DNA from: a virus | Reading direction: 5' to 3' (one strand) | IMG/VR virus record: IMGVR_UViG_3300009507_000012 | Coordinates: 27,745-91,744 of that record | DNA length: 64,000 bases | Shown: one piece after another, positions 1-60,716 of the stretch | How the letters are laid out: every line of letters begins with the position of its first letter | Numbering within the stretch: the stretch's first letter is position 1 | Made by a program: the position numbers and the translations under genes | The notes under the pieces: generated by a model | The model's input: the letters and a program-made list of their open reading frames with translations, nothing else | What the model was told of the DNA's origin: nothing | Databases searched by the model: none

Positions 1-1189
1 TTATTTTGTCTAATTCTATTTTACTAAAACCATAAATTGCTTTTAAAATTGCCTTACTACCTCTTTTCATAGTAAGAAGTCCTCTAAGTTTAGAACTCTT
101 TAATGCTTCATTAAGTTCTAAAGATTCGTTAACGAACTCACTAAAACTTTCGTATATTTTTGATTCTTTCATTTCTTTTGCCTTTGTTTTTAAGTCTTTT
201 AATTCATCTTTAACTTTACTGCCTTTAGCATATCTTTCAATACCCCAGTTAAATGCTGCGGTAAATAGCTTATCGAATGGGAGTTTTGAGAATTTTCTAC
301 CGAAGGTTGATTGATCTAACCAGTCTGAAAATGTATTAGCCATTTCTTTAGAAAGTTTAATACCTTCAACTGAATTAGTTTCTCCATTTACTACTGATTT
401 TAATAGCTTTTTTGCACTTACTCTAGCTTCAGTAACTGCTGATTCTAAAATATCAGAAGAATCAAATTCATATTCTTCTAACTTATTTATTAGTTCTTTG
501 TCATTCTTAGCCTCGAAGTCATAATCATGCTCTCCACTAACAACTACATAATATCCTCTACCTTTTTTATAAATCTCAGCATTAGAACCTTGTCCATCTG
601 ATGTAGATCCTATATGATCTTTTGAGTCATATGTTCCTTCAGTAACTGCAGATTCTAAAATATCAAATATGTGGAAACCTCCACCTGTCATTTTATCTGA
701 CCATTCAACGTGTTTAAGTTCTACTTCTGGATGAACCTTCTTAATAGAATCAATTACCTTTTCTGGGCTAATTTTATAACCGTACTTAATTTGAATTCTT
801 TTCTTGTTAAGTTTAGTAATTTTTGGCTTAGTATTACCTGTGTAGTCTATTGCTAATTGATATGTAACGTCTGATTTATTTAAACCTTCATCTACTGATT
901 CTGTAACAAGATTATTTAATATCTTTCTACCATAACCTGAAAGGCTTACGCCGTCTTCTTCTATTTTAAAAAATCTTTTATTACCTCTTGTCCATTTTGA
1001 TGGAGCAGAAGAATGTTGTCCAACTATTTCGTTAAATTCATCAACTGTAATTTTACCGTCTTTTAATGCTTCAATAATTGCATTTCTAACTTTAGCTGAA
1101 CCTCCTACAGTTTTAGCAGGGTAATTTTCAGTATATCTTCTTTTAAGCGTTATATTTCTTTCGTTTAAAAAGTCTTCGAATGTTGCCAT
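1..1189 (-). CDS. Putative capsid-targeted internal head protein (partial, C-terminus beyond window)
   Basis: The frame is open from the ATG at 1189 to the left edge with no stop (about 396 codons visible), so the gene is cut by the window. It starts MATFEDFLNER. This matches the T4 internal-protein signal (IPIII begins MKTYQEFIAEA) and includes an L-x-E site where the T4 prohead protease would cut. The segment DILESAVTE occurs twice inside (around 445-480 and 640-670), and a second FSEFVNE motif lies near 130-160. I do not recognise an enzyme domain. A late-promoter-like motif lies 28 bp upstream. I infer an internal head protein processed at several sites; a structural role of another kind is possible. 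Confidence 0.7.
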   Translation of the reverse strand, partial: MATFEDFLNERNITLKRRYTENYPAKTVGGSAKVRNAIIEALKDGKITVDEFNEIVGQHSSAPSKWTRGNKRFFKIEEDGVSLSGYGRKILNNLVTESVDEGLNKSDVTYQLAIDYTGNTKPKITKLNKKRIQIKYGYKISPEKVIDSIKKVHPEVELKHVEWSDKMTGGGFHIFDILESAVTEGTYDSKDHIGSTSDGQGSNAEIYKKGRGYYVVVSGEHDYDFEAKNDKELINKLEEYEFDSSDILESAVTEARVSAKKLLKSVVNGETNSVEGIKLSKEMANTFSDWLDQSTFGRKFSKLPFDKLFTAAFNWGIERYAKGSKVKDELKDLKTKAKEMKESKIYESFSEFVNESLELNEALKSSKLRGLLTMKRGSKAILKAIYGFSKIELDKI

Positions 1190-1216
1190 TATTTTTATTT
1201 ATTTTTATCTATTTTA

Positions 1217-1225
1217 TTATATATC
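1217..1225 (-). promoter_or_regulatory. Late-promoter-like motif GATATATAA
   Basis: On the minus strand this reads GATATATAA. It overlaps the TGA stop of the preceding gene and lies 28 bp before the ATG at 1189. The same 9-mer precedes at least six other phage starts at 20-38 bp, which suggests a phage-specific -10-type element comparable to the T4 late promoter TATAAATA. Confidence 0.6.
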
Positions 1226-2234
1226 AAATTTTTACTTTAACTTTAATCGTATTTTGAGTGACTTGTGCTATTTTTAATTCTTTAGCATTACTAGGTAATT
1301 GTTCCTTATAATAAATACCTTGCACTTTTTTCTTACCAGATTTTCCAGTAGTTCTAATAAATACAAACTTTTCTTCAATATCTCCAAATCCTTCCGCTAC
1401 TTCTTTTTCTATTTTCTTAAAGGTTTTTACATTTGTATTAACGTCTTGGCTTAAAATCTTATTAATTTCTGAAACTGTTTTTGCGTCACCGATATTACCT
1501 ATTACATTCCCTTGAAACTTTACAATTATTTCACCTTTTGCACCTTGTTTAAGTTTAAAATCTTTGTCGGCTGCTGCTGGTATTGTGTCTAAGTCTTTAA
1601 AATATTTGAGCAATGTAGTATATTCTCCTTTTGCTGCACTTTTTTCTGCAGTTTGACCTGCTGTTGTAGTAGGGTCTAATTCAGTAATACCATCTCTAAC
1701 TGCTAAATATAAATTTCTAATATCTGTAATAGCCTGTGCTCTGATTGCAGCATGTCTTGCTCCTGTTCTCCACCCTGTTAAAAAACCATCCGTTGTTCTT
1801 GTTACTTCTTTTAGTTCTGCTATTCCAGCATTTAAAAATTTACCAGTTTTTGGATCGAATAAGTTTAAGTCTACGTCTGCACTACCTCCGCCTATTGTTA
1901 AGTTTTCAACAAGATACGCCATTAATATTTCACCTGATCCAATGCCTGTTCTTTTTAAATTAAATAATGTATTTGTTGAATCGATATCTTCACTCATTAA
2001 TTGAAAAACTTCTTGCATTGTAGAATCATCTATTTTTGTTAAAGTTAATCTCTTTGAAAAGGGGGATTTTCCTTTAAAATAATCTTTGTTAATAAGATCA
2101 AACATTTCTTGCTTTGCCTTTAAATTATTTAATTGACCTAGTGATTGATATTTGCCTACACTTGCTTCTAGTAAAAGATCTTCTCTTTTAGCTACTTTAT
2201 TCATTAATATTTGAAAATCTGTTCTTATACTCAT
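1224..2234 (-). CDS. Unknown head-region protein, possible PD-(D/E)XK nuclease fold
   Basis: This 336-aa protein lies in the head-associated block, one base downstream of the ligase/NMNAT fusion gene. Around residues 99-145 it has an early GSGE, then ADVDL, then AELKEV. This spacing resembles the E...D...ExK core of PD-(D/E)XK nucleases, followed by a helical segment rich in Arg and Ala. Near the N-terminus LLLEAS is a possible L-x-E prohead protease site. The C-terminal third is Lys-rich. The nuclease reading is an inference from spacing only; otherwise it is an unrecognised phage protein, probably made late together with its neighbours. Confidence 0.6.
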   Translation of the reverse strand: MSIRTDFQILMNKVAKREDLLLEASVGKYQSLGQLNNLKAKQEMFDLINKDYFKGKSPFSKRLTLTKIDDSTMQEVFQLMSEDIDSTNTLFNLKRTGIGSGEILMAYLVENLTIGGGSADVDLNLFDPKTGKFLNAGIAELKEVTRTTDGFLTGWRTGARHAAIRAQAITDIRNLYLAVRDGITELDPTTTAGQTAEKSAAKGEYTTLLKYFKDLDTIPAAADKDFKLKQGAKGEIIVKFQGNVIGNIGDAKTVSEINKILSQDVNTNVKTFKKIEKEVAEGFGDIEEKFVFIRTTGKSGKKKVQGIYYKEQLPSNAKELKIAQVTQNTIKVKVKI

Positions 2235-2235
2235 C

Positions 2236-4074
2236 TTATTTGCCTTTAAATTCTGAAAATGTTAAAACCTGTTCTTGTAGTTCAACGCTTTCTTCCATTG
2301 TTTGTTTTAATAACTTATACATTTTGTACATAGACTTAGGAGTCATGGACTTATATGTCTTTTCGTCTCCATCTAATAAAGCGTTTCTTACCTTTGTTGC
2401 ACTAATGTTATCGTCTGTCCTTGGAATTTCTTCTAATCTGAAGCTATCTTCAACTCCTAATTCTCCTCTATATTTTGGGTTATTAACTTGATAGCCATAG
2501 GTTTTCATTCTATCACTACCTGTTCCCCATAATACAGGTTCATACTTAGGTCTCATAGCATTAAACATTTTGTCAATTGCTGCGGTATCTATAACGTACA
2601 CTGTCTCAATAGGATATTCCTTCATCACTTGTTTTATCATATTAACCTGCATTGTTTCATCAAAAGGTCTTTTAAAACTATCTTCTTTCTTTTTCTTTTT
2701 AGCTTTAACTAAAAATATAACCGTTGGAAGTCCATTTTGTTTATGTAAATGTTCAACTACTTTAACATGTCCTAAAGTAAATGGCTGAAACCTACCAACA
2801 AACATATTAACTTCTTTAGCTCCTCTTTCAGGATGGTTTACTTTTAAACCTTCGTTAATTGGATTTGTTTGTCCCTTAAGTGTATCGTTAATTTTAAAAG
2901 TTTTAAAATCCATTACACCATCTTCCTCTACTTTTTCGTAAATTCTTGCCTCAATCTTTTCTATAATACCATTTAAACTATTAAATGTATCTCCTGCTAA
3001 AACTCCATTTTCTTTCTGTCTCTTCTTTCTAAAAGTGCCTAACGTTATTTTTAATAATTCTGCAACTTCTCTTGATTCATTAACAAGTCTAATAGTTTCT
3101 TGGTTTGTTATCATTTTTGGGTTTAAATCAAATGATTCATTGTTTGCAAATTCAGCGCTATCAAAATTCATACCAATAAAACTTGCGCCATTGTCTTTTA
3201 TAAATGAATTAAAACCTGCTGTCATTAATTCTAAATATCTCTCATCAACTTCTTTACTTTCAAGTTGTATTTCACTAAAATCAAACGCATTAAAATATTC
3301 AATAAGTTTTACTACAGTAATTTGATACGCATCTGAACTCTTTCTCTCTTCTTGTTCTTTAATTTCTTTTAATGGACTCTGTAGTTTAAAGTTTTTTAAT
3401 GATTTGCCCTCTACGAAACTTACAACTAATCCATCAATGTCTTTATGAATATCATTGTTTAACATTGACTTATGAATTGACTCGTTAAATGTTGTAAATG
3501 CTCTATAAGAAAAACCAAAATCTTGTAATTCTATTTTTGCTTGCTCTCCTTGTAAACTTAGTATATTAACTAACTTTTCTTTTTGGTGATCGGAAAGGAT
3601 ACCTTCATAAACAACCTCAGGAGATTGAACTTCTAAAAGATTAGCCCATTTTTCTAAAATCTTAGGATCTCTAATTACTTTTTTAATCTGGGTTCTGTCT
3701 TCATTTAATACTTGAATATGTGTTAATATAAGACTATTTTTTGGAAGTGTATCATATTCAATGTCTACTGTCTTTTCACTAACCATATAATCAAATCCAA
3801 ATTTCCAATCACTTGGCATCTGTTGAATAGTCTCATCTAATATTGCATCAAAATGGCCTATGCCTTTTTCATAATAAGCGACAATTGTTCTATCTATTTT
3901 ATTAAGTGGCTGTTTATTTCCTGATTTATAAAATTCTAAAAGTCTATCTTCTCTTCTTACATGTAAGCTACTTGCTTGAATCTTTTCAGTAACTAAACAT
4001 TTTTGTGTTAAAAGATTATTAAAATCCTCTTTTTCAACTGACTCATAATATGTTCTTAAATCTTGTAATGCCAT
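2236..4074 (-). CDS. Ligase-fold domain fused to NMN adenylyltransferase-like domain
   Basis: The protein has 612 residues. The N-terminal part (about 20-235) resembles RNA ligases of the T4 Rnl2 type: EKIQASS at 30-36 at the place of motif I (candidate Lys31), a GFDY...IEYDTLP segment at the place of motif III, and DGLVV followed by NFKLQSP at the places of motifs IV and V. Motif I has Ala where Gly is usual, so activity is uncertain. The C-terminal domain (about 422-575) is a nucleotidyltransferase of the cytidylyltransferase/NMNAT type, with GRFQPFTLGH at 427-436 and NISATKVR near 556-563. The protein ends LTFSEFKGK, resembling the capsid-targeting motif but at the wrong end. It could serve NAD synthesis or nucleic-acid end repair; the fusion is not one I know by name. 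Confidence 0.75.
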   Translation of the reverse strand: MALQDLRTYYESVEKEDFNNLLTQKCLVTEKIQASSLHVRREDRLLEFYKSGNKQPLNKIDRTIVAYYEKGIGHFDAILDETIQQMPSDWKFGFDYMVSEKTVDIEYDTLPKNSLILTHIQVLNEDRTQIKKVIRDPKILEKWANLLEVQSPEVVYEGILSDHQKEKLVNILSLQGEQAKIELQDFGFSYRAFTTFNESIHKSMLNNDIHKDIDGLVVSFVEGKSLKNFKLQSPLKEIKEQEERKSSDAYQITVVKLIEYFNAFDFSEIQLESKEVDERYLELMTAGFNSFIKDNGASFIGMNFDSAEFANNESFDLNPKMITNQETIRLVNESREVAELLKITLGTFRKKRQKENGVLAGDTFNSLNGIIEKIEARIYEKVEEDGVMDFKTFKINDTLKGQTNPINEGLKVNHPERGAKEVNMFVGRFQPFTLGHVKVVEHLHKQNGLPTVIFLVKAKKKKKEDSFKRPFDETMQVNMIKQVMKEYPIETVYVIDTAAIDKMFNAMRPKYEPVLWGTGSDRMKTYGYQVNNPKYRGELGVEDSFRLEEIPRTDDNISATKVRNALLDGDEKTYKSMTPKSMYKMYKLLKQTMEESVELQEQVLTFSEFKGK

Positions 4075-4085
4075 TTTTTATAATT

Positions 4086-4538
4086 TTATGATACTTTCTT
4101 TAACTCGTTAAATACTATATTGTGCTCTTGTAAATATACATCAGTATTAACATAAAGTTCTCCTAACATCTTTTCATTATCAGGATCAGTTACATCAGTT
4201 ATTGTTAATAAAGTAATGTTTACCTTTTCACCTGCTCTACCTGCCCAACCTAATTGAGTATCATTTAACCAATACTGTGAATTACCAAATCTATAAGTCG
4301 GCAAGTCTGGTTTATTACCATTTGGCTGAACTGTAAACGCTTGGTAGTGTACAAACATTTTGTTACCTTTCCATGTTTGAATTCTACGTTCAGCGTCTTT
4401 AACTGTCTTTGATGTTCTAGGCATTAAACTTTTAAAAAGCTTCATATCTACTTTATCTCTATTAGACAATACTTCTGGTTTGAAATTGTCCATACTTGAT
4501 TCGTTTAAGAATTCTTCAAATAGTTTTATCTTTTTCAT
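4086..4538 (-). CDS. Putative capsid-targeted internal protein
   Basis: I chose the internal ATG (150 aa, MKKIKLFEEFLNESS) over the upstream ATG at 4556, because the N-terminus then matches the capsid-targeting pattern F-x-x-F-L-x-E seen in several genes here, and because the upstream start would overlap the preceding gene. The L-N-E site would be cut by a T4-type prohead protease. The rest (RRIQTWKGNKMFVHYQ, then a WLNDTQLGWAGRAGE stretch and a beta-rich C-terminus) matches no family I recognise. It lies 8 bp downstream of the ligase-like gene and 12 bp upstream of the fusion gene, so probably in one late transcript. Confidence 0.7.
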   Translation of the reverse strand: MKKIKLFEEFLNESSMDNFKPEVLSNRDKVDMKLFKSLMPRTSKTVKDAERRIQTWKGNKMFVHYQAFTVQPNGNKPDLPTYRFGNSQYWLNDTQLGWAGRAGEKVNITLLTITDVTDPDNEKMLGELYVNTDVYLQEHNIVFNELKKVS

Positions 4539-4545
4539 AATATAT

Positions 4546-5811
4546 TTATCTTCCATATTTTATTATACCCATAAGTTGATTGATCGCAGCAAATGTACCT
4601 GTAAGTTTCATAATCTTACCTTTGTATTTAAACACTATTCCCTCAGTTGGTACAATACCTTCAATACCTCCAATACTTTCTAATCTTTCTAATTCTGCTT
4701 CTATCTTAGCGACTTGTTTTAAATCACCATTAAGTTTAACATTAGCAGCTGCTTTTCTAATCTTATCGTGTAGGTTTTTCTTTTCTAAATCAGGATTTGC
4801 AGCAACAAAATTACTTGCATTTAATAATACATCTTTTCCTAACTCTAAAAATAAGTTTTCAAATGGTAAAATATTTTGCTTATACTTTTTACCTTTTATC
4901 TTGTCAAACTCTTTAATTTTTTTCATTTGTTCAGGAGTAGCAATCTTTTTCATAGCAACCATATTCATAGTTTGCTTGTCATTGTATGCCCATCTTAAAA
5001 ATAAACCTTCCTTTAAATCACTTGAAATATCTGCAAAATCTTTTTCAATTTCTCTTCTCCACCATGCTTCATGATACATTTTAACCTCGTCACCGTCTGA
5101 TAAATTAAATACATCTCTTAAATCATTTAATTTACTGTGATAATAACTTTGTCTCTTTTCAAAATCTATGTTTTTCTGAAGTTTAAGTATTTGTGGAGGA
5201 ATAATTGTAAATGTCTTTTGTACATCTGCCTCTATACCTTTAAGAAGTCTTGCAAGTTTTGCACCTGTTTGTTGTGACATATTAACTATATTACCTTTGC
5301 CATCAGTTTCTGCCATGCCGTGAAATTGAATAACATCTCTGTCATAATTAATCACATTAGGGTTCTTAGAATAAATTAACTCCATATTAAGAAAGTTTTG
5401 TCCATTGTTAAATTCTTGGTGATCGCTTAAACTTAATAATGCAGCTTCTAAATCTGTTGCAGCATAGATAAAAGTATCTTCTACTAGTTTTGATGCATGG
5501 CCCGTGAACATTTTAATAACTCCATCTAAAGATACTGGAGCTTGTAGTTGCCCTTTATTTCTTGAGAAAAGAACTTGACCATCTCTTACTGTAACAAAGA
5601 AATTTTGACCGTCTGTTTTTTCAGTAGGACCTTCTTCAAAATGTATTTCACCTTGTAATGAATTTGTAACAATAGTTTTAAAATCTTGGAAAGTTAAATC
5701 ATTATAATCAAAGGGGTGAGGCATGTGACCTGCAGCTCCTCCTTCTAAAATCAAATTACCCTCTACTATCTGAGCCTTTTCGACTAGAAATTGTTCGTAA
5801 GTTAATAACAT
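4546..5811 (-). CDS. ATP-dependent ligase-like nucleotidyltransferase with capsid-targeting N-terminus
   Basis: The 421-aa product begins MLLTYEQFLVEKAQIVEG, a close match to the T4 capsid-targeting sequence, with candidate cleavage sites LVE, IVE and ILE in the first 23 residues. The body has the covalent nucleotidyltransferase core of RNA/DNA ligases: motif I EKTDGQNF with candidate Lys65, a motif III-like FLNMELIY near 140, and motif IV/V-like TEGIVFKYKGKIMKL near the C-terminus. A helical insert of about 150 residues separates motifs III and IV. The gene sits between an acidic head protein and another capsid-targeted protein. I infer a ligase-family enzyme carried inside the head; substrate unknown (RNA, DNA or protein AMPylation). 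Confidence 0.75.
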   Translation of the reverse strand: MLLTYEQFLVEKAQIVEGNLILEGGAAGHMPHPFDYNDLTFQDFKTIVTNSLQGEIHFEEGPTEKTDGQNFFVTVRDGQVLFSRNKGQLQAPVSLDGVIKMFTGHASKLVEDTFIYAATDLEAALLSLSDHQEFNNGQNFLNMELIYSKNPNVINYDRDVIQFHGMAETDGKGNIVNMSQQTGAKLARLLKGIEADVQKTFTIIPPQILKLQKNIDFEKRQSYYHSKLNDLRDVFNLSDGDEVKMYHEAWWRREIEKDFADISSDLKEGLFLRWAYNDKQTMNMVAMKKIATPEQMKKIKEFDKIKGKKYKQNILPFENLFLELGKDVLLNASNFVAANPDLEKKNLHDKIRKAAANVKLNGDLKQVAKIEAELERLESIGGIEGIVPTEGIVFKYKGKIMKLTGTFAAINQLMGIIKYGR

Positions 5812-5826
5812 GTCTATATTTTATTT

Positions 5827-6330
5827 TTATCCTAAAGATGACTGTAACATTCCTACAGCAGTTCCATAGTCTCCATCAGCTTTCTTTAACATTCCTTCAG
5901 CAGCTTCTTTAGCTTTAGCCTCGTCAAAATCATCACCAAATGCTTTTTTATACATTGTCATAGCCATTTCCATAAAATCTTCATCAGACTTAACTTCAGC
6001 TTCTTCAACTTTAGATTCTTCTACTTTGTAAGTTTCTCCACCTACTTTAAATTCTTCTTTATCTTCTTCTTTTGCTTTTTTAACAGCTGCTCCGAATGCA
6101 TTACCTTCAGTTTCTACCTCATCAGTTTCACCAACTAATTTACTAAAAAATTCAGTTCTTTGTTCTTCAGCTATTTCAGCAACAGTAGTTACTTCATATT
6201 CAGCTAATAGATCAGTAAATCTCTGAGCTTCAGATGTTCTCTTTGTAGACGCTTCTTCTTTTATCTTAGTGTCTATTGCTGCTTTTCTAGTTTCAGAAAA
6301 TGTAGCAAATGATTGAATTTGTGTTTCCAT
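5827..6330 (-). CDS. Acidic scaffold-like head protein
   Basis: This 167-aa, Glu/Lys-rich, mostly helical protein begins METQIQSFATFSE, a weaker form of the capsid-targeting motif without L-x-E. The middle is a charged, low-complexity segment with many Glu (about residues 70-120). The C-terminus (MYKKAFGDDFDEAKAKEAAEGM) looks like a compact helical bundle. Composition and position at the head of the block resemble T4 prohead core proteins, but no specific homologue is recognised. A GATATATAA motif lies 33 bp upstream, so this is probably the first gene of the 1-6330 late unit. Confidence 0.65.
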   Translation of the reverse strand: METQIQSFATFSETRKAAIDTKIKEEASTKRTSEAQRFTDLLAEYEVTTVAEIAEEQRTEFFSKLVGETDEVETEGNAFGAAVKKAKEEDKEEFKVGGETYKVEESKVEEAEVKSDEDFMEMAMTMYKKAFGDDFDEAKAKEAAEGMLKKADGDYGTAVGMLQSSLG

Positions 6331-6362
6331 TTTTATTATGTTTTTTTATTACTATATTATAA

Positions 6363-6371
6363 TTATATATC
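6363..6371 (-). promoter_or_regulatory. Late-promoter-like motif GATATATAA
   Basis: The minus-strand 9-mer lies 33 bp upstream of the ATG at 6330, in the short gap after uvsW. It would start the head-protein unit that runs to the left edge. Confidence 0.6.
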
Positions 6372-11532: not shown

Positions 11533-11895
11533 TTATTTACCTAGTGAAGCACCTATTGCAGTACCAACAAGTCGTGAAGTTAATAAATCATATAAAATAC
11601 CCTTTTGAACTCCTAATACCTTGGCTATCATTTTGCCCATAGATTTTCCTAAAGCAAAACCAGCTAACCCTCCGATAATAGACCCAAAAAGACCTTCATT
11701 AGTCATTTCATTATTAAATCTATTAATATCTAGATTTCCATCTTCATCTCTATATTCGTTTAAAAAAGAATCAACCGCTTGATCTACTTTTTCTTCTAAT
11801 TCAAGAGTCCATTCCTGTTGAAGCCCTTCAGTTAAAAGCTCTAATTCATTTTCTGTAACTTTGTTTTCTTCTAAATATTCTATAAATGTTTTCAT
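11533..11895 (-). CDS. Capsid-targeted glycine-zipper protein
   Basis: This 120-aa protein begins MKTFIEYLEENK, very close to the T4 IPIII start, with candidate cuts after LEE and LTE (residues 10 and 23). An acidic helical segment follows. The C-terminal half (about 69-120) is a hydrophobic, Gly-rich stretch with G-x-x-x-G spacing (GSIIGGLAGFALGKSMGKM and later VGTAIGASLGK), typical of membrane-active glycine zippers. I infer an internal head protein released at infection that may insert into or cross the host membrane. No enzyme domain is present. It sits between the RuvC-like gene and tail genes. Confidence 0.75.
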   Translation of the reverse strand: MKTFIEYLEENKVTENELELLTEGLQQEWTLELEEKVDQAVDSFLNEYRDEDGNLDINRFNNEMTNEGLFGSIIGGLAGFALGKSMGKMIAKVLGVQKGILYDLLTSRLVGTAIGASLGK

Positions 11896-17265: not shown

Positions 17266-20200
17266 TTATGACTTTATTTTTATTAAAGGTCTAATCTTAT
17301 AAGAGTAGCCTATTCTTTTATTATATATTAATCTAAAATTGAGAGGGTTTACAGGGTCTAATTTATAAGTAAAATTACCATCTGAGATATATCCATTTAC
17401 ATTTAAATTAGAGGGATCAGAAATAATATCAATTGTAGTTATTTGTTTTTTCCCTTCATATACCGCTAATCTAATAGAATCTATTGAAAATGCAGGTATT
17501 ATATTTTCAGCAACATATCCATTAATATCATCACTTAACGTGTCAATTCTACCAAAACTATTTTCAACCTCTACTAACCTGTTCATTGTATAACTTAAAC
17601 CTAAACTACTTAGTTTTTTAACAACGGCCTCCCTCATATAAAAATCCATTATTACTTCTCTCTCAGTTTCTATATAATTAATATCATTTTGAGACTCACC
17701 TAATAATTTAATATTGTTTAATTCCTCAATAGTCTCATACCTTCCATGTGTAAAATCAAATACTTCATATTCTTTATTTAATTTTATAGCGCTCGAACTC
17801 ATATAGCTTTTTTCTTCAACAATATTTTTAGTTCCTGGAATATATTGAATTCCTCCCCTGCTAGTTGATCTAACGTAGTAAGTATCTTCCCATCTTGACA
17901 TAAAAACATTTTTGTTTTTCTTTTCAATAGCAATTTCATTTATTAAATTATATTTAGGTAATAAATCATCTGATTCTGAAAGTTTTATAACTCCACTAGT
18001 GTCTATGTCATTTACTTTATGGAAAAAATGATTTTTAATAGTTCCCCATTGGCTATCATGTAAAGGTGATTTAACTTCACCTATGTTAAATAATACCCCA
18101 CACCCGTTTAGTTTTTTATATAATTCTATTGCAAGTTTATTTTCATTAGTATTACCAATGTTATAATTATAAACATATCCAATTGGAGTTCTATATACAT
18201 CACTCCAGTCATATCCGTCACCCGGTTCAATTTTATGCATAGAAAAAGGTTCACTAAATGTAATAATAGGTTTAGTATTTACGGTATATTTTCCATTTTG
18301 TCTAGTTAAAAGAGCAAAATATTCGTTTCTAGATTCTATACTATATCCAATAGATTCATTTGTTAATCCAAACGCTTTAGGTTTATTAATGTCTATTTCA
18401 GGATATAAGTTAGAAGTTTTAACTATTTCAACACCGTCTTGCATTTCTAAAGAAAATGTATTTTCAACAATACTTCCATCGGCATTAACTGTTAAATATT
18501 CAGCATTGTTAGTAGTATTTAAAATATTTGCAACATTTCCAGCAGATAATAAATTTAATAAAGATGAATGTGCAAAAATACCTCCACCTCTATATGAATA
18601 GCTTGCAGACTTATATTGATTTAATGTATAAAATTGAGTAGGTTGAGGAACACCATTTATTGTCATTTCCCCAGTAACTGAAATTTTATTATCATTTATT
18701 ACATTGTCTATGTTTAGTTCATATGTTATTCCAGCAACTTCAACTTCTAAAATACCATAAGAACCAGTTATAGGATCTTTAAGTATTTGTGAAGTAAATG
18801 AAGGAACACTACCACTGCTGTGAGTAATTCCATCTATTACAGTGCTTTGACCTTGACTTAAATTAACTGAACTTAAATCTAATGCACCTGAAACTATACT
18901 ATTTGAATAGTTATAAAGATCTTGTAACTTATGATCTAGTTCATATAATAATTTTCTATTTAAACATCTAAAGTTATCATCTGATAAATTTAAATCTAAA
19001 ATTAAAACAACAAATTTAAATTTTTTATTTTGAATTATTCTAAGTTTTAATTCATTTGGAGAATTTACATCAAAGGATGTTTTTAAAACGGTTGAAAATC
19101 TATAACCATTAAATTCACTATTTTTAATAAATTCTTTAGTTATGTTATTTTCAATTTTTTTTCTAGTTTTAGGTATAAATCTAATACCTTTAAATATTGT
19201 TGAGGCAAATGATTCACCTCCTCCATCTTCTATTATTGTATACTTTTTAAAAGTTCTAGATTTTCCAAATGAAGTTTGAGCAAATGTTTCATCAGAACCA
19301 ACCATTGCCCCAGTCCCTACAAAATATGTTTTAAAATAATCAAAATTTATATCTTTAAAATGATCTAAACTAAATTCAATATTGGGTGAAGGTTTTAAAT
19401 AACTAAAAGTATTATCGACATCAAAATACTCTAAGTATGTAGGGTATTCGTCTATATAGAACCATTCGTGTGTCATTTTAGTTTCGTCTCTATCTAAACT
19501 TTCTAGAGAAGCAGCAAAATTAGTTTCACCAAATGCTTCATTTAAATTTAGAAAGTATGGGTTTTCTCTAACATTTAAGCTATCCTTTAGAGACCATTTA
19601 TTAATATATGGAACTACTCTGGAGATTGTAGCAAATTCCGTTGTATTATTTTCTTGTAGTCTTTCAAATTCACTAGATATTCTAGTCATTGTGTTTCCTT
19701 CAGGTAAACTGTTTTCATCTTCTAATATGTTTATTAAATTAGAAAAATAAGTATTAGAATCTTCCTTTAACCTTTCAACATCAGCATATGCATCTAAAGG
19801 CATTTCTCCATTAGGCCCAGTAGGTTCATCAATTGCATTTGAAAATGGGTAAAGTATGTCATCTTCTAAATCTAATTCTTTTAAATCAGAATTAGATTCA
19901 TCATAAAAATCAAAATCCATATCATGAATATCATATGCACTAAACATTCCCCATTCAATTTTAAAGTCTTTATAAACATTAACAATATTTTCTATACCAT
20001 TGTTTTTATCTTTAAGAATTACTCTTTTAAAATTAGAATTTATCTCTCTTGGATCATCTACTATGTCTAATACTTCATTAAATCTATTTTCAATATCTAA
20101 TAAATATTCACCTATACTGATTTCATCTTCATCATCTTCATTAATATAAATTGAAGAATTTACATTACTTCCTCCTTTTAAATACCAAACTTCATTATTT

Positions 20201-50224: not shown

Positions 50225-50407
50225 TTAAGAATTAAGTTGTTGAGTCCCGCCCTCGATCTTAAGTCCTAATAAGAATTCTCTGACGGCGTAGCCATAAGCA
50301 ATACCGGCATAGAATTTATCTCCTTGAAATAGTAATAGGGTTGCTATTCCACCTGCAATTGCGGCTTTAAACCAAGACGCATTTACAATTCCTTTTATTT
50401 TATTCAT
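50225..50407 (-). CDS. Small membrane protein
   Basis: The 60-aa product has one or two hydrophobic segments (WFKAAIAGGIATLLLF and FYAGIAYGYAVREFLLG) with small residues and basic ends. It shares its first base with the stop of the Glu/Thr-rich gene and is closed by a terminator. A holin or envelope role is possible; nothing specific is seen. Confidence 0.6.
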   Translation of the reverse strand: MNKIKGIVNASWFKAAIAGGIATLLLFQGDKFYAGIAYGYAVREFLLGLKIEGGTQQLNS

Positions 50408-51000
50408 TAAGCTTCTGTTTTAGTAATGATTGAATTTTCTGGACCTTGAACTGGTTCGTTCTCAGATTCAGGTCTTTCATTCTCAGAAGTACCATATGCT
50501 TCACATGCTTCGTTACATTTTTTAGCATACGCTTCTTTTATAGAATTACATGCAGCTTCATATTGTTCTTTTGTACAATCTTCCTTTTCATACATTTCTT
50601 GAATAGCATTACATGCAGTTTCAGCAGCAAGTGTAGCCATTTCAGCCATGTATGTATCTTTTGTATGTTCTGCATAATCATCAGCCTCATATGCCATCGC
50701 TTCATTTTTACAAGCTTCTTTAATGTTCTTGTGCATTTCAGCAACTGTCATAGGTTCAGTTGGCTCAGCATCAACCTCTTCGGATTCTTCTGTAGCTTCC
50801 GTTTCTTCTTCCGTTTCTTCAGTATCAGTTGTTTCTTCAGAGTCAGTTGTTTCTTCAGAGTCAGTGTCTGTTGTTTCAGTATCTGTAACAGTAGTATCAG
50901 TATCTACAGTGGCAGTATCTGTTGTTGGAGCTTCAGCAGTGGCAGTATCTGTACCTCTTGTTGAAAACTCTTCGAATGATAATATTTGATTAGTATTCAT
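50407..51000 (-). CDS. Acidic Thr/Glu-repeat protein with targeting-like N-terminus
   Basis: The 197-aa protein starts MNTNQILSFEEFSTRG, which resembles the capsid-targeting motif but lacks L-x-E. Residues 17-85 are low-complexity TDT, TDSEE and TEE repeats. The C-terminal half is a helical domain with six Cys in the pattern ACKNEA, ETACNAIQEM, EDCTKEQYEAACNSI and KKCNEACEA, which may form disulfides. A GATATATAA motif lies 25 bp upstream, so it is a late gene. I infer an abundant internal head or scaffold-like protein; no family recognised. Confidence 0.65.
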   Translation of the reverse strand: MNTNQILSFEEFSTRGTDTATAEAPTTDTATVDTDTTVTDTETTDTDSEETTDSEETTDTEETEEETEATEESEEVDAEPTEPMTVAEMHKNIKEACKNEAMAYEADDYAEHTKDTYMAEMATLAAETACNAIQEMYEKEDCTKEQYEAACNSIKEAYAKKCNEACEAYGTSENERPESENEPVQGPENSIITKTEA

Positions 51001-54755: not shown

Positions 54756-54785
54756 ATATTATTATATGACGAAAATGAAAAAGGT

Positions 54786-55478: not shown

Positions 55479-55491
55479 TTATTAAATTATT

Positions 55492-55758: not shown

Positions 55759-55834
55759 TTTACTTACTTTTATTTATATATTCCAACTACCTTTTATTGG
55801 CAGCCTTGTTTAATAAAAAAAATAGATTATATTA

Positions 55835-56026: not shown

Positions 56027-56280
56027 ATCTTGTCTTTTATAGTTTTTACTTCTTTACACTTTTCAAATTCTTCAGTTAATTCAAACCAATTAATTAAAGA
56101 ATCTAAGGCTTTTAATTTTAAATCCTTTGGATAACCTCCATATATTGCATATGAGGTATCTTTTATTAAAGCATCATAAATCATTTCATAGACGTGACCA
56201 GGATTAATTGGTTTAGTTACTAACATATTTAGAAACATTTCAAAATCATTAAATTCGCCAAGTGGACTTTCGCCTATCAT
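56017..56280 (-). CDS. Small protein with UVR-like C-terminal motif (paralogue 2)
   Basis: The 87-aa protein ends SLINWFELTEEFEKCKEVKT IKDKI, the same tail as the proteins at 55492 and 57588. The first half (EFNDFEMFLNMLVTKPINPG) is helical and differs from the paralogues. It lies between dnaJ and the bS21 gene, overlapping both by a few bases. Function unknown. Confidence 0.62.
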   Translation of the reverse strand: MIGESPLGEFNDFEMFLNMLVTKPINPGHVYEMIYDALIKDTSYAIYGGYPKDLKLKALDSLINWFELTEEFEKCKEVKTIKDKICS

Positions 56281-57092
56281 TTTACTTTTATTTTTTTAAC
56301 ATATTCAATTTGTTCCTCTGTAAGTTTTGGCCATTTACCATTAATCCTACAAAGCAAACTTCCTCTGTTTGTTGTATTATATATCGGGAAACCTTTGTCA
56401 ACTATCCTCAGTACCCTGCCAGGATATGTGTTTTCTGGAATTTTAAGTAAGACTTTACCATCAGGCGTTTCAACTTCTCTTTTACAACCTATCATTATGT
56501 CCCACCAGTTGAGAGTTAATTCAGTCCAGATATCACTCCCTTGTAACACAAATCTAGAATCTTGTATAACAGATACATTTATGATAACATCCCCTCTAGG
56601 ACCATCAGGGTTATAGGGGTTAGTGCCTCCTTTGCCATTAATTCTAAATGTTTGACCAGTAAACATGCCAGGTTTAAAATTCATAGCGAGCCTTTGCCCA
56701 TTTACTGAGAATTCTTTACGACAACCATGAAAGGCTTCATTAAAACTAATAGTCATATTAACTCTAAAGTCTTGGCCTTTAGCCTGTCTTCTATTTCCAA
56801 ATATGTCATTAAACATATCTGCAAAGTCTCCACTGCCACCAAAGGGATTTCCACCATTGCCTCCAAAAGGATTCCTTCCACCAAATGGACTTCCCTTAGG
56901 ATCTCCAAATTGATCATAGTTTTGCTTCTTAGTTTTATCTCCTAAAACATCATAAGCTTCACTAACTTCCTTAAACTTTTCTGGATCGCCGTTTTTATCA
57001 GGATGATACTCCTTTGCTTTTTTACGGTATGCTTTCTTTATTTCAGAATCAGATGCCCCTTTATCTACGCCTAATACGTTGTAGTAGTTCAT
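56277..57092 (-). CDS. dnaJ: DnaJ-family co-chaperone (no zinc domain)
   Basis: The 271-aa protein has a full J domain (1-65) with His30-Pro31-Asp32, a Gly/Phe-rich linker (about 70-100, GGRNPFGGNGGNPFGG), and the C-terminal client-binding part (MTISFNEAFHGCRKEF, GDVIINVSV, LKIPENTYPGRVLRI). The CxxCxGxG zinc repeats are missing, so it resembles the CbpA type. It would stimulate host DnaK for phage assembly or replication. A second J-domain protein is on the plus strand at 62529 and an Hsp20 at 58461. Confidence 0.93.
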   Translation of the reverse strand: MNYYNVLGVDKGASDSEIKKAYRKKAKEYHPDKNGDPEKFKEVSEAYDVLGDKTKKQNYDQFGDPKGSPFGGRNPFGGNGGNPFGGSGDFADMFNDIFGNRRQAKGQDFRVNMTISFNEAFHGCRKEFSVNGQRLAMNFKPGMFTGQTFRINGKGGTNPYNPDGPRGDVIINVSVIQDSRFVLQGSDIWTELTLNWWDIMIGCKREVETPDGKVLLKIPENTYPGRVLRIVDKGFPIYNTTNRGSLLCRINGKWPKLTEEQIEYVKKIKVK

Positions 57093-57095
57093 CTC

Positions 57096-57317
57096 CTATG
57101 ATTGATCAAGTTTCTTATTAATAATCTCAGTAACTTGGCCTACTTTTCTTTTTTCTTGAATATCTTTTAATTCTAGAGTTGCCTTCTTTTCTTGCACCTT
57201 ATTAAACTTTTCATATTTTTTATTTTGTGCTTCAGTTAATACATTCCCTTTTTCAAGAGCATCTGCAATTCTCTTTAATTGTTTTAAAAGATCTTGTGTA
57301 AGTTTATTATTTTCCAT
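57096..57317 (-). CDS. Small coiled-coil protein
   Basis: The 73-aa helical, Lys/Glu-rich product (LLKQLKRIADALEKGNVLTE) is likely a coiled coil. It lies 3 bp before dnaJ and overlaps the upstream gene by 11 bases, so may be coupled to the chaperone gene. Unknown. Confidence 0.58.
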   Translation of the reverse strand: MENNKLTQDLLKQLKRIADALEKGNVLTEAQNKKYEKFNKVQEKKATLELKDIQEKRKVGQVTEIINKKLDQS

Positions 57318-57591
57318 ATTTGTTTTTTACTAGGTCTGACTTTCCGTTTTGAAAATCCTGGTAAGGCAAACTATTATCCTTTTCTCCTTCATGTGGACTA
57401 TCTATTTGTGGCCCATCTACCTTTATATTATCTTTATATGGATTTGTTTCACCTATTTTAGATTTAAAATAATTATCAAAGTCTTTTATAGTGCCTCTAA
57501 AGTTTCTAATATTATATAAATTAGAATCTTCACCTGTTGCATCACCAGTCCCTTGATGTTCAAATACTTTATATGTTTTTACGTATTTCAA
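57307..57591 (-). CDS. Small polar protein with targeting-like start
   Basis: The 94-aa protein begins MKYVKTYKVFEHQGTGD, which loosely recalls the capsid-targeting pattern (K-T-Y-x-x-F-E) but without L-x-E. The rest is polar and probably disordered (IDSPHEGEKDNSLPYQDFQN). It overlaps the paralogue-3 gene by 4 bases. Unknown function; capsid targeting is only a possibility. Confidence 0.55.
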   Translation of the reverse strand: MKYVKTYKVFEHQGTGDATGEDSNLYNIRNFRGTIKDFDNYFKSKIGETNPYKDNIKVDGPQIDSPHEGEKDNSLPYQDFQNGKSDLVKNKYGK

Positions 57592-57941
57592 AATTCAATA
57601 GTATTTATTTGATCTGAAAATAATTTAACATCATGACATTTTTCATAATCTTCTCTATCTTCAAAAAACTCAATCATAATATCAAGAGTTTGTTTTAGTC
57701 TATTTAAATTATCTTCACCATATTCAGCAATACCTTCAACGTCTACTCCTTGTTTTACAATGTTGTTATAGTTTTCCATAATTAATTGTTCTTCTCTAAC
57801 CCTTTTTAATTTTTCAATTAAATCTTTAAAATCAGCTTCGTTAAAATCATCTAAACTATTAAATGATTCACTACCTCTATGATTATTGTTTTCATCATCA
57901 AACAAATCATCATAATCCTCGTTGTCAAAATAATCTTTCAT
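57588..57941 (-). CDS. Protein with UVR-like C-terminal motif (paralogue 3)
   Basis: The 117-aa protein has an acidic, disordered N-terminus (MKDYFDNEDYDDLFDDENNN), a helical middle, and the tail MIEFFEDREDYEKCHDVKLF shared with the proteins at 55492 and 56017. The tail is the closest of the three to the UVR motif. Function unknown. Confidence 0.62.
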   Translation of the reverse strand: MKDYFDNEDYDDLFDDENNNHRGSESFNSLDDFNEADFKDLIEKLKRVREEQLIMENYNNIVKQGVDVEGIAEYGEDNLNRLKQTLDIMIEFFEDREDYEKCHDVKLFSDQINTIEF

Positions 57942-57955
57942 AATATTATATTTAT

Positions 57956-58189
57956 CTATTTAATTATGTAATGGTATAGCCATCCAGTATCTTCATCATC
58001 ATATTCTATTTCTTCAACAGTATATCTGTCTCCGACTGTTTTTTGTAAAGAATCTAAAGGTACTGCTCTCCAATATCCAAATCTAAGTATAATGCTACCA
58101 AACATTCCTTCAGTAGATGGGCCTACTTGAAAATCATCAGACCCATATTCTTTTTCTATCTTTTTTAATATTTTATAATCTATTCTCAT
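57956..58189 (-). CDS. Small unknown protein
   Basis: The 77-aa product has a helical start (MRIDYKILKKIEKEYGSDDF) and a strand-rich second half ending DDEDTGWLYHYIIK. No family recognised. It lies 14 bp before the paralogue-3 gene. Confidence 0.58.
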   Translation of the reverse strand: MRIDYKILKKIEKEYGSDDFQVGPSTEGMFGSIILRFGYWRAVPLDSLQKTVGDRYTVEEIEYDDEDTGWLYHYIIK

Positions 58190-58199
58190 ATTTTATTTA

Positions 58200-58370
58200 T
58201 TATCCTACCATCCATTCAACAAATACATCACATATCCAAACATTACCATTACCATATTTTTCTATTAATTCGAATGAAGTGGTATGAGCTAAGCCTTCGT
58301 CGTCTGTATTTAGATAGTCTATAATTTCACCATCTTTAAATAATTTTACTGTATATCTAGTCGTGTCCAT
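58200..58370 (-). CDS. 56-aa unknown protein behind duplicated promoter cassette
   Basis: An ATG-to-TAA frame of 56 codons (MDTTRYTVKLFKDGEIIDYL...) starts directly after the second copy of the duplicated cassette. The peptide alternates strands and ends VWICDVFVEWMVG. The same promoter-like cassette drives the T9SS-like secreted protein, so both are probably made at the same time. No family recognised. Confidence 0.65.
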   Translation of the reverse strand: MDTTRYTVKLFKDGEIIDYLNTDDEGLAHTTSFELIEKYGNGNVWICDVFVEWMVG

Positions 58371-58460
58371 TTTTTTAAGTTTTAATTATAATACTAATAT
58401 AAACAAAAAAAGCGACCCGTGAAAATCATGGACCGCTTTTTTTCAAAAGTTATTAACAAT
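58371..58460 (-). repeat. Duplicated promoter-like cassette, copy 2
   Basis: This copy has the same arms and centre as 51746-51842 but with a GC-rich hairpin inserted around the centre. It lies between the hsp20 stop and the 56-aa gene, so position relative to genes is the same in both copies. Confidence 0.7.
58404..58440 (-). terminator. Terminator hairpin inside the cassette
   Basis: On the minus strand AGCGGTCC and GGGTCGCT pair over 8 bp with two G-U wobbles, followed by seven T. It would end the hsp20 transcript before the 56-aa gene. Copy 1 of the cassette lacks this stem. Confidence 0.75.
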
Positions 58461-58811
58461 TTACTTAATCGTAATAGATTTAGATTCAGTTTTGCCGCCA
58501 AAGTCAATAATTAATAAACCATTTGTCATTTTTGCAGAAATGTTTTCTACATCAGTGCTGGTTGGTAAAACATAAGACTTTGAAAAAGATTTATAATATC
58601 TAGTTGATTTATCTTCATCAACCTCTGCTGAGACAGTTAATGTTAATCCATCTACTTCTATATTAATGTCTTTTTTAGAAAATCCTGGTAAAGCTAGTTC
58701 TAAGTTTTTTAAATCACCAGTACTAGCAAGGTTAGATCCATAAAAATCCGCTTTATGGAATACATCAAATACATTGTCAAATGTATCAAAAAATTTGTTT
58801 GTTAAAATCAT
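58461..58811 (-). CDS. Small heat shock protein (Hsp20/alpha-crystallin)
   Basis: The 116-aa protein holds an alpha-crystallin domain: LELALPGFSKKDINIEVDG, LTVSAEVDED, SFSKSYVLPTSTDVENISAK and NGLLIIDF, the family's typical strand order. It prevents aggregation of unfolded proteins; Hsp20 genes also occur in T4-like cyanophages. A sequence matching the sigma-54 promoter consensus lies 52 bp upstream. Confidence 0.92.
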   Translation of the reverse strand: MILTNKFFDTFDNVFDVFHKADFYGSNLASTGDLKNLELALPGFSKKDINIEVDGLTLTVSAEVDEDKSTRYYKSFSKSYVLPTSTDVENISAKMTNGLLIIDFGGKTESKSITIK

Positions 58812-58862
58812 TTTTTATTATTTAATTAATTTAGTGCAACATTAGCGTTACATTTATAATAC

Positions 58863-58878
58863 TGCAAAAATTATGCCA
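58863..58878 (-). promoter_or_regulatory. Sigma-54-like -24/-12 promoter before hsp20
   Basis: The minus strand reads TGGCATAATTTTTGCA, a full match to the consensus TGGCAYRNNNNTTGCW with correct spacing, in the gap upstream of hsp20. The GATATATAA motif is absent here. Chance cannot be excluded. Confidence 0.45.
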
Positions 58879-58932
58879 GAGTTGCTTTTTTGCAAATATT
58901 GTCATAAATGTAAAAATAGAAGTGACAGGGTG

Positions 58933-59670
58933 TCATATTGTTTGTTGATGGCTAAATTTTAATAGAACATTTATAGTGGCTCTAATATCCTCTTCACAAT
59001 AATCTTTTAACTCTTCCATCATTCCATTCCAATAGGCTCTAGCAATTCCACCATAATCTTCATTAGAAGATACATCGGCTTCTTTGGGGTTTGAAATTCC
59101 TAACATAAATGTTAAATGTTCTAGTGATACGCCAGCACCCCAACTTCCACATTTCCATATTTCAATAGTATCTAATAAACAGTTTTCCCACGGCTTCATA
59201 TCATGTAAATGAAATTTATTTGGAACCTTAATACCCATCACCATGCATTTTTTAAGAATGTAAGGCATATCAAATCTTTTAATATCATGACCTAGGATTT
59301 TAACATCTGGTATTTTATTAAATACAGCTCTCATAAATTCTATAAAATCCTCAACGTTCTTTCTTTCATCTGCACCATAGAATGATTTCTTTAAAAAGGT
59401 TGGATTGTCATCATCGTCAAATTTAACTTGACCTATTGAGATGCAAACTATTCTACCAAATTCAGGATATACTGCTGCATATTGCTTATAGATTTCACCA
59501 TCTGATTTATCTGCTAATTCAGCAAAATCTTTTCTACATACTGCTGCCTTTCTAGCCCAGAATTTCATTTCACCTGGGTGGTTAGCACAAAAATCTTCGT
59601 AATTTTCATAATGACTAGTCGTTTCAATATCTAAAACGAGAGTCTTCTTAAGTTCTGATATACTATACAT
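58933..59670 (-). CDS. PolB-type 3'-5' exonuclease (DEDD family)
   Basis: The 245-aa protein is a stand-alone exonuclease of the PolB-exonuclease type: LVLDIETT with Asp14/Glu16, ILGHDIKRFDMPYI as Exo II, and ELKDYCEEDIRATINVLL as Exo III. It lacks a polymerase domain. Proposed roles are proofreading in trans or processing of DNA/RNA ends. It precedes an intergenic region and follows the ATP-grasp gene by 17 bp. Confidence 0.88.
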   Translation of the reverse strand: MYSISELKKTLVLDIETTSHYENYEDFCANHPGEMKFWARKAAVCRKDFAELADKSDGEIYKQYAAVYPEFGRIVCISIGQVKFDDDDNPTFLKKSFYGADERKNVEDFIEFMRAVFNKIPDVKILGHDIKRFDMPYILKKCMVMGIKVPNKFHLHDMKPWENCLLDTIEIWKCGSWGAGVSLEHLTFMLGISNPKEADVSSNEDYGGIARAYWNGMMEELKDYCEEDIRATINVLLKFSHQQTI

Positions 59671-59687
59671 ATTAATTATATGTAAAA

Positions 59688-60716
59688 TTAAAGGATTGTT
59701 TCTTTACCGTCTATTATGTTTTGATAATTAATGCAGCATTTAGATTTTTTAATTTGGTCTGCATTTTCTTTAAGATTAACTTTGTAAATAGGCTTAATAT
59801 ATTCTTCGTTTAAATAAGTCTTAAATTCTTGTGGTAACTCTTCTCCATAAAAATCTTCATAAACTGCAACATAAGCTCTAGCCATTTTATCCGGTGCCAT
59901 ACCAGATGCTGAATTAATTTCTGCAATCCAGCAATCTCCATCTTTATCTATCATTAGGTCTAATGACCAAAGACCGAGTTTTAATTTTTCTCTAATAGTT
60001 TTACAAATTTCATTAGATCTATCCATAAAGTCTAATTTACGCATATCTTGATCAACATATGTAAATTCAGTTTGTTCATCTAAGTCTTTATCTTTAATTT
60101 CATTTTTACCCATTGAAACTCTTTCGTGAACTAAAATAGGAGTTTCATTCATTAATAATACTCTAAATTCTCTATCAATATCCTTTACCTCAGAGTAGTT
60201 TGCAAATTCCTCTTTACTTTTTTCTAAATCTTCATATTTATCAAATATTTCAATACCTAACCCTGAATGGCCATCATCTGGCTTTGCAATTACTGGAAAT
60301 TGTAAATCCTTTGCGTCTTTTCTTTTATAAACTGTTTTTGGAATAAAATCACAATCACTAAACATTTTATAAAATTTACTTTTTCTACCACTAACTAACA
60401 TAGGTGGAGGAGTGTTATACATAAGTTCTTCAGGTATTTTATATTTTTTTATAAAATCTAAACCACCTGGGGTATTACCTCCATAATATATGAGTGGAAG
60501 CTCTGTATTTACATCTAAATCTTTTTTAATATCTACCTTTCCATAGTATGTATTAAATAATTTTTCAAAACAATTAACGTTAATATCTCCATAAAGTTTT
60601 ATATTGTTATCCCCTGTAAGGCTTATTATATCTTCACCTGCTAATATAAAATTAACTTTCTTAAGATAATCTTCGTTAGACTTTTCGAATATAAATTGTT
60701 CAAATGTTTTAAGCAT
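59688..60716 (-). CDS. ATP-grasp ligase with capsid-targeting N-terminus
   Basis: The 342-aa product starts MLKTFEQFIFEKS, matching the T4 internal-protein signal with I-F-E as cut site. The body is an ATP-grasp enzyme: FPVIAKPDDGHSGLGIEIFD (ATP-binding lysine and Gly loop), LVHERVSMGKNE, LWSLDLMIDKDGDCWIAEIN with the metal-binding D and E-x-N. Such enzymes join carboxylates to amines or thiols via acyl-phosphates (RimK, glutathione and peptide ligases). Together with the adjacent glycosyltransferase and the amidoligase-like gene it may modify peptides, proteins or surface polymers. Substrate unknown. Confidence 0.8.
   Translation of the reverse strand: MLKTFEQFIFEKSNEDYLKKVNFILAGEDIISLTGDNNIKLYGDINVNCFEKLFNTYYGKVDIKKDLDVNTELPLIYYGGNTPGGLDFIKKYKIPEELMYNTPPPMLVSGRKSKFYKMFSDCDFIPKTVYKRKDAKDLQFPVIAKPDDGHSGLGIEIFDKYEDLEKSKEEFANYSEVKDIDREFRVLLMNETPILVHERVSMGKNEIKDKDLDEQTEFTYVDQDMRKLDFMDRSNEICKTIREKLKLGLWSLDLMIDKDGDCWIAEINSASGMAPDKMARAYVAVYEDFYGEELPQEFKTYLNEEYIKPIYKVNLKENADQIKKSKCCINYQNIIDGKETIL

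Follow-up and report, generated by a model that had tools for sequence, protein, structure and literature searches.

What do several otherwise unrelated phage proteins share in starting with nearly the same ten or so residues? The question is raised by a 64,000-nucleotide stretch of DNA (the window), which covers positions 27,745-91,744 of the 91,744-base virus record IMGVR_UViG_3300009507_000012 (G000); the remainder of the record was also examined, and coordinates prefixed C1 count along a whole record. A preliminary description of the window reported five proteins with N-termini of the type F/Y-x-x-F/Y-L/I-x-E, compared them with the leader of the T4 internal proteins and proposed a cargo set packed into the head, trimmed and injected with the DNA. 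All five N-termini were found where they had been placed, on the minus strand. T4 IPIII does start with MKTYQEFIAE, as does IPII, whose mature start is annotated in the T4 record right after the glutamate of the leader. We consider it highly probable that this tag is a T4-type capsid-targeting sequence, working as such on an open-ended set of cargo proteins trimmed by a protease.

The first tagged protein, 678 amino acids (aa) long and composed of several domains, has its N-terminal part at 1..1189 (tag MATFEDFLNE at 1160-1189); the gene crosses the window edge and continues to C1:26897. The others are a 150-aa protein (4086..4538; tag MKKIKLFEEFLNE at 4500-4538), its start being an in-frame ATG within an open reading frame (ORF) whose longest form begins at 4556; a 421-aa RNA-ligase-fold nucleotidyltransferase (4546..5811; tag MLLTYEQFLVE at 5779-5811); a 120-aa protein (11533..11895; tag MKTFIEYLEE at 11866-11895); and a 342-aa ATP-grasp enzyme (59688..60716; tag MLKTFEQFIFE at 60684-60716). 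A leader with an [LI]xE protease site is common to these otherwise unrelated proteins.

With a strict pattern, [FY]xx[FY][LI]xE within the first 20 residues (16 for phiKZ, T7 and lambda) of mechanically called genes, five of the 71 window ORFs were tagged. Shuffling of residues 2-30 gave a mean of 0.15, none of 5000 shuffles reached five, and the rate of the pattern inside proteins predicted only 0.37. The motif search suggested for the rest of the phage brought up four further strictly tagged proteins, at C1:2481, 23593, 24086 and 24413. The tagged set first described was real; its size had been underestimated and the multi-domain nature of the first protein missed. Because the strict pattern misses T4 IPI, Alt and gp24 (N-termini KEFTST, ITELFDE and INELLRE), its counts are minimum estimates once every kind of leader is considered; with a broader pattern, chance counts rise strongly.

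Compared records were six IMG/VR relatives picked by their ligase gene (G001-G006), two huge phages (LR756500, 462 kilobases (kb), and the first 400 kb of the 735-kb LR756501), pT24, PAU, P-SSM2 and T4. Several IMG/VR records are fragments; by its ligase, G001 belongs to about the same species as G000, and G002 and G005 are close. All nine records of the clade and the huge phages were enriched in strict tags, with observed counts unmatched by 200 shuffles each: 9 of 102 ORFs of at least 50 aa in G000 (shuffle mean 0.41), 15/256 in G001 (0.83), 25/338 in G002 (1.16), 16/233 in G003 (0.86), 8/156 in G004 (0.39), 8/109 in G005 (0.27), 4/98 in G006 (0.32), 23/671 in LR756500 (3.10) and 34/547 in LR756501 (2.83). 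T4 had 4/266 (1.03) and P-SSM2 5/317 (1.01). No excess of strict tags was detected in pT24 (1/293; 0.86) and PAU (0/293; 0.82), nor, under the 16-residue limit, in phiKZ (1/359; searched without its last 334 bases), T7 (0/47) and lambda (0/74). A broader, leucine-tolerant pattern exceeded expectation in pT24 (17 vs. 6.8), T4 (17 vs. 6.5) and P-SSM2 (13 vs. 6.1), so the leucine form may serve other phages; it gave no excess in PAU (6 vs. 7.4), phiKZ, T7 and lambda.

The tag is a feature of protein starts: in seven records its density was 0.0049 per position at residues 1-10 and 0 to 0.0007 in the bins past residue 20. A scan of IMG/VR with the tag in DNA form matched at least 118 stretches, and in the 80 loci analyzed, near-identical contigs included, 96 of 882 non-hit ORFs were tagged (shuffle mean 3.15), four of them in records already counted. 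Some strict matches are likely due to chance, e.g., a gyrase-like fragment at LR756500 165332 and two G001 ORFs (116425, 123461). ATATATA occurred upstream of 24/76 tagged genes vs. 181/1114 others, a motif chosen after looking and only suggestive. In T4, gene 61.1 (18966-19130; 54 aa, hypothetical in the record) starts with MKTFKEFIKE, a full tag match, and may encode an unrecognized internal protein.

The tag proved modular. After its removal, 142 tagged proteins from nine records fell into 91 groups without similarity between groups (blastp E 1e-4), 71 of them single-member and seven present in three or more records; with the IMG/VR loci added (80 of the at least 118 stretches), 334 tagged cores gave 166 groups. 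In an alignment of 89 of the 91 group representatives (two crossing locus ends were left out) MKxxKxFExFxNE was kept and almost nothing beyond. The residue following the tag glutamate was A, S, N or G in 54/91. In G002, 13 of 15 neighboring ORFs forming an array were tagged. The codons of identical tag residues (23 tags, two arrays) mismatched at a rate of 0.28 vs. 0.32 for independent draws. Codon mismatch near independence, together with the unrelated cores, indicates a tag that is kept by selection at the protein level and joined to many unrelated proteins.

Within single families the tag is conserved. F8 and E11 of the tag did not vary among 26 ligase sequences with identities as low as 34%, and residues 13 and 15-19 were among the most variable. 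The ligase gene matched 41 IMG/VR loci at 54 to 99% identity, of which 39 encode strictly tagged ligases; one (L032) has leucine at the first aromatic position and one (L036) begins past the tag region. A second invariant glutamate was found in the 26 sequences at [IV]xE/GG directly before the domain (slashes mark candidate cuts), in the window protein as ILE/GG at residues 21-23, and is possibly a second cut site. AlphaFold2 modeled residues 5-11 of the ligase as a short helix at low confidence and residues 18-28 as disordered. The 120-aa protein, traced through seven records, carries the strict tag in five and MKTFVQHLEE in the other two. It had been called a glycine-zipper protein; the Gly-rich stretch is present, and the match to PF13488 stayed under the cut-off (21.5 vs. 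25 bits). ATP-grasp members of fetched whole records were tagged in 4/5 cases, the fifth (LR756500) starting with PYEEFKINDD; among IMG/VR relatives, L190 is tagged and L192 reads SFEQWSITE at an uncertain start.

A gp21-type protease, whose presence the preliminary description proposed to check, is encoded in the same record, outside the window. The domain (Peptidase_S77, PF03420, 42.8 bits, cut-off 27; phrog_207 head maturation protease, 1.8e-38) lies in a 628-aa protein at C1:547-2433 (L002:547-2433, minus strand), the second half of which repeats the tag motif, e.g., YSEYLAE, YTEHVAE, YTEHIAE and YSNYIAE. The repeat unit is aromatic-x-x-aromatic-[IL]-A-E, spaced at multiples of seven residues, mostly 14. 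When H was allowed at the second aromatic, seven copies were counted in G000, five of them consecutive at 14-residue spacing; there are seven to eight copies in G001-G005, four in G006, three in LR756500 and fourteen, twelve consecutive at 14-residue spacing, in LR756501. Position and the T4 gene order lead us to infer that this tail is the scaffold, which in T4 is encoded by a gene separate from that of the protease, whereas the two are fused in G000 and its relatives. If so, each tagged cargo protein would bear one copy of the building unit of the core, which suggests a loading route.

Two genes separate the portal gene (phrog_213) from that of the protease: the first encodes 169 aa with a tag-like start (KLFEQYTKA), the second a tagged protein of 129 aa (MKLKTFNQFILE). 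Beyond the protease comes a protein starting with MANLINEAEIRATWSPI, which we regard as the major capsid protein because of its position and likeness to T4 gp23 and not because of a database match. T4 gp23 itself has FGSFLTEA at 59-66, presumably its cut site. A tagged protein stands between portal and protease in 7/7 G records, at the site of T4 genes 67 and 68. The gene just downstream of the capsid gene in G001-G006 starts with FENWYSK, FESWYKS, KLFEEFSAGE or ISEWLTE, a hint of further leader types.

All of the relatives selected through their ligase had the S77 protease (6/6); six more records in the survey had been chosen via their protease and hence are no test. It was also found in 11/11 further tag-bearing contigs of at least 130 kb, i.e., all of this length listed and not previously fetched (G011, G012 and G014 being probably one species), and in 2/2 contigs with an untagged Acb1-like gene, which are counts of co-occurrence and not of enrichment over long IMG/VR contigs in general. 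No PF03420 protease was detected in phiKZ, T7 and lambda (0/3), and the LR756501 match (24.1 bits) stayed under the Pfam cut-off. A second S77 match, of 132 aa and above the cut-off, accompanies the large one in G011, G012 and G014; in LR756500 the second match is below the cut-off, and in LR756501 both are. Named neighbors of the protease infect Prevotella, Tenacibaculum, Sphingomonas and cyanobacteria, which is a host hint only.

The 678-aa protein showed no Pfam domain at E 0.05. Its segments recur in other orders among relatives, and the domain behind its tag recurs after either an N-terminal tag or an internal [LV]xE. The KRxYTE segment directly follows the N-terminal tag in G000, G001, G004 and G006 (FLNE/SKITL-KRQYTE in G004) and is found far from the N-terminus in G002, G003 and G005, there directly after xE/S (ELDE/S, EVNE/S and EVTE/S). 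For the VYQMTG segment, G002 has a tagged gene of its own, and G003 and G004 have an internal domain that follows ELNE. Similarly, in G001 the domain of the 150-aa protein makes up the C-terminal portion of a longer protein (652 aa), after an internal MKKVKLFEEFLNE. Altogether, 54 of 77 internal domain starts lay within six residues of [LIVMF]xE (at random, 27.9 on average and no more than 42 in 2000), and [LIVM]xE[ASGN] reached 13.6 per 1000 residues in 18 multi-domain proteins vs. 4.9 to 6.7 elsewhere. The 18 proteins were hand-picked from similarity matches and not by a blind rule, and related proteins were counted together; because the set was chosen and its members are not independent, the junction statistics are weaker than the numbers suggest. 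Among the junctions that do not fit are those of GNAFGAA, after EFAAE in G006 and after EVETE in G000. The arrangement suggests that the multi-domain proteins are cargo polyproteins cut inside the head; such putative polyproteins, the 678-aa protein included, are new in this analysis.

The enzymatic nature of two of the window proteins, as first proposed, was upheld. In the ligase-fold nucleotidyltransferase, K65, D67, G68, R84, E144, E390, G391 and K402 are invariant in 26 sequences, corresponding to what we take to be ligase motif I (KxDG) and the later E and K motifs. Foldseek placed only RNA or DNA ligases at ranks 1-23, at weak E values of 0.015 to 0.39. VIA-align listed ligases in rows 1-40, the best being a fungal tRNA ligase (Z 8.2, root-mean-square deviation 4.5, 169 residues), which is borderline telling. 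A profile of the 421-aa protein found no ligase among PDB sequences. The 342-aa protein matched Dala_Dala_lig_C at 24.7 bits (cut-off 24) and other ATP-grasp families under their cut-offs; the conserved motifs KPxxxHSGxG and ExN were seen in six sequences.

Outside the window, relatives encode an Acb1-like protein (PF23474, 27.7 bits, cut-off 27) with the two HxT motifs of Acb1, in which H60, T62, H135 and T137 are invariant in 46 sequences (46 of 59 candidate references were used). Its identity was settled by the fold search: phmmer reached Acb1 at E 0.37 only, and Foldseek matched 9q2y (E 9.4e-6) and 7t27 (2.5e-5), other 2H enzymes following close behind. Known Acb1 (PDB 7t26/7t27, 9q2y) likewise has the 2H phosphoesterase fold. 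The difference lies in the putative head-packing tag, present in its strict form at 23/80 loci (20/65 distinct; the best 80 of 83 relatives), while the T4 57B protein, which we take to be Acb1, has no strict tag. Starts in this family (L311-L390) are of three types, an aromatic tag, a leucine leader (MIKLKDLITE) or none, so the same enzyme occurs with and without a leader; the N-termini of T4 Alt and gp24 also belong to the leucine type. In the model, residues 1-14 fall below pLDDT 50 and the body is mostly above 90.

Other tagged proteins of the relatives and other phages include a Zeta-toxin/AAA_33 kinase, PPK2, a DUF2201 metallopeptidase/VWA protein, a DeoC aldolase, a CTP_transf_like enzyme, an AAA ATPase, a phage lysozyme, PNK3P and a methyltransferase. 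Representatives were scanned in sets of 89, 89 and 73 (the last being 73 of 76, with three left out), the first 25 families being reported for both sets of 89. Among 50 chosen tagged proteins scanned against Pfam one by one, 31 gave no match at the E limit used. A tagged family of LR756500 occupies C1:13446, 180972, 198758, 313382 and 331856, and one of its representatives strongly matches leucine-rich repeats (LRR).

The weaker forms of the tag noted earlier were also present, as METQIQSFATFSETRK (6330), MNTNQILSFEEFSTRG (51000) and MKYVKTYKVFEHQG (57591), all on the minus strand. A 167-aa protein (5827..6330) has SFATF without an adjacent LxE, and its segments recur in the multi-domain proteins of relatives. 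A 197-aa protein (50407..51000) has SFEEF; similar proteins carry the full tag, MAKLKTFEQYVSE in G002 and G005 and MKTLKSFNEFVLE in G004, so the weak form at 51000 is a tag variant and not noise. The weakest start belongs to a 94-aa protein (57307..57591), known as sequence only, and its membership is doubtful. Between the first two tagged genes lies an untagged 612-aa protein (2236..4074, minus strand) with a cytidylyltransferase-like C-terminal domain (PF01467, 4e-8, residues 424-564). Its N-terminal part is ligase-like by eye only (KIQASS), and its relative in LR756500 adjoins the ligase gene of that phage. The 612-aa protein ends with LTFSEFKGK.

How would such a tag work? A protein made in the infected cell and bearing F/Y-x-x-F-[LIV]-x-E would join the scaffold core of the prohead via a short helix similar to the unit repeated in the protease's scaffold-like tail. 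The S77 protease would then cut after E and release the cargo in the head; the scaffold would be degraded, DNA would fill the head, and the cargo would enter the next host along with it. Some cargo may be made as multi-domain polyproteins cut by the same protease. Since the tag is modular and sits on unrelated proteins, a new protein could become loadable by gaining a leader of 10-13 residues. The cargo probably serves to take over the host early and to counter its defenses: RNA repair for the ligase, modification of proteins or metabolites for the ATP-grasp enzyme and removal of cyclic nucleotides for the Acb1-like enzyme of the relatives. We lean slightly towards a wider proposal, in which large environmental phages use a 10-13-residue copy of the scaffold repeat as a universal loading code for dozens of injected proteins per virion, part of them as polyproteins cut inside the capsid, so that counter-defense precedes phage gene expression. 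The RNA-ligase-fold and ATP-grasp enzymes would belong to this arsenal, joined in relatives by a polyphosphate kinase, a PNK 3'-phosphatase and an anti-CBASS enzyme.

The T4-type reading passed most of the sequence tests applied, and several observations weigh against it. The sequences show a conserved, modular and enriched tag, a protease, tail repeats and a pattern at domain junctions; binding to the core, cleavage, packaging, injection and the functions of the cargo are predictions. pT24 and PAU have an S77 protease but no excess of strict tags, so the protease does not imply this form of the tag. T4 late-promoter-like sites (TATAAATA-like) were not enriched upstream of tagged genes (31/85 vs. 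420/1206). T4 gp22 is devoid of the aromatic repeat and the LR756500 tail has only three spaced copies, hence mimicry of the scaffold by the tag is not general. The LR756500 ATP-grasp homologue retains the aromatic part without LxE, and some of the weak-form proteins are not cleavable at the tag because they lack LxE as well. Finally, 23 of the 77 internal domain starts are not near a protease-type site.

Three other explanations were weighed. Tagged proteins could be loaded and trimmed yet act in the prohead itself, in core building, DNA condensation or size control, and never be injected. The small tagged protein beside the protease does occupy the place of T4 core genes 67/68, and leaders of this kind bring the T4 internal head proteins into the core, with IPIII possibly acting in head assembly (PMC5694885, PMC9026906). 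Against a purely structural role, most tagged genes are remote from the protease gene (104 of 142 at distances above 30 kb, only 12 within 10 kb), most groups are confined to a single member with few shared by three or more records, and the set includes enzymes for which no structural use is obvious, e.g., the PPK2 match and the Acb1-like protein, whose catalytic-type HxT motifs are invariant. We regard this explanation as unlikely.

Still less probable, in our opinion, is that the N-terminus signals something else, e.g., a helix docking to a replication compartment, a membrane or degradation, and merely resembles the T4 leader. In its favor are the two S77-bearing phages without tag excess and the missing late-promoter signal; against it are the match both to a T4 leader with an annotated cut point and to the scaffold-like repeats, the mostly small residues after E, and the recurring domains that often start right after xE, whether N-terminal or internal. 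Least credible of all seems an origin of the tag in recent gene duplication, the arrays then being one paralogous family. Same-strand genes do stand in tandem arrays and some tagged proteins are true paralogues, the LRR family of LR756500 for instance; a common ancestor of the arrays was nevertheless rejected in view of the 91 groups dissimilar behind the tag (blastp E 1e-4) and of codons for identical tag residues that differ almost as often as in independent draws.

The T4-type capsid-targeting reading has its closest precedent in the T-even internal proteins, which have only the leader in common, are injected and block restriction enzymes (PMC3012670, PMC12373910); T-even ip genes, at least ten of them reported, were previously found via this leader (PMC12373910). 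The first 10 residues of IPIII suffice for incorporation, and internal proteins co-purify with scaffold gp22 (PMC9026906). The system described here resembles IPI/IPII/IPIII in its short leader ending in [LI]xE, its S77 protease and its unrelated cargo sharing the leader alone. It differs in scale, with 25 strict-pattern proteins in the 256-kb G002 and 34 in 400 kb of LR756501 (about one to three chance matches included), and in its tandem arrays, recognizable enzymes, multi-domain cargo and a protease fused to a tag-repeating, scaffold-like tail. T4 Alt is a host-modifying ADP-ribosyltransferase likewise carried in the head (PMC9026906), but it is one enzyme and not a set, and its ITELFDE has leucine and isoleucine in place of the aromatics.

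Outside the T-even phages, P1 DarB is a large injected protein whose N-terminal signal, the first 30 residues being sufficient, brings a reporter into the head; its authors give a leader longer than nine residues that is not described as the present motif, no consensus among Dar N-termini and no separate P1 scaffold (PMC9024508). Ejected head proteins of SPN3US and phiKZ also lose propeptides to the prohead protease, but these measure 20-24 residues in two N-terminal cases and 111-254 in the other six (PMC5694885, PMC10052503), and phiKZ has neither a PF03420 match nor an excess of strict tags. Co-injected proteins of phiKZ-like phages are detailed in a 2026 jumbo-phage review (PMC13282480). 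Polyvalent proteins, as injected multi-domain proteins the nearest precedent, similarly combine several domains per polypeptide and are thought to enter the host with DNA; processing by a built-in metallopeptidase was proposed for them (PMC5512222), whereas here the domain junctions tend to be at sites of the prohead-protease type and domains also occur as separate tagged genes. In the portions of the literature searched, no description of this motif as a tag outside T-even phages was found, an absence that is not proof. Such leaders thus have precedents in the T-even phages and, of a different form, in P1 DarB; what appears new is the scale, the enzymes, the arrays and the polyproteins.

If the proposed reading is true, sequence alone would suffice to list the injected proteins of many huge and uncultured phages, for whose proteins a function is mostly not known. 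Counter-defense, including the removal of cyclic nucleotides and RNA repair, would be delivered with the DNA rather than made afterwards. Mimicry of the scaffold would offer a simple mechanism for loading any protein by means of a short leader, of potential use in capsid-loading tools.

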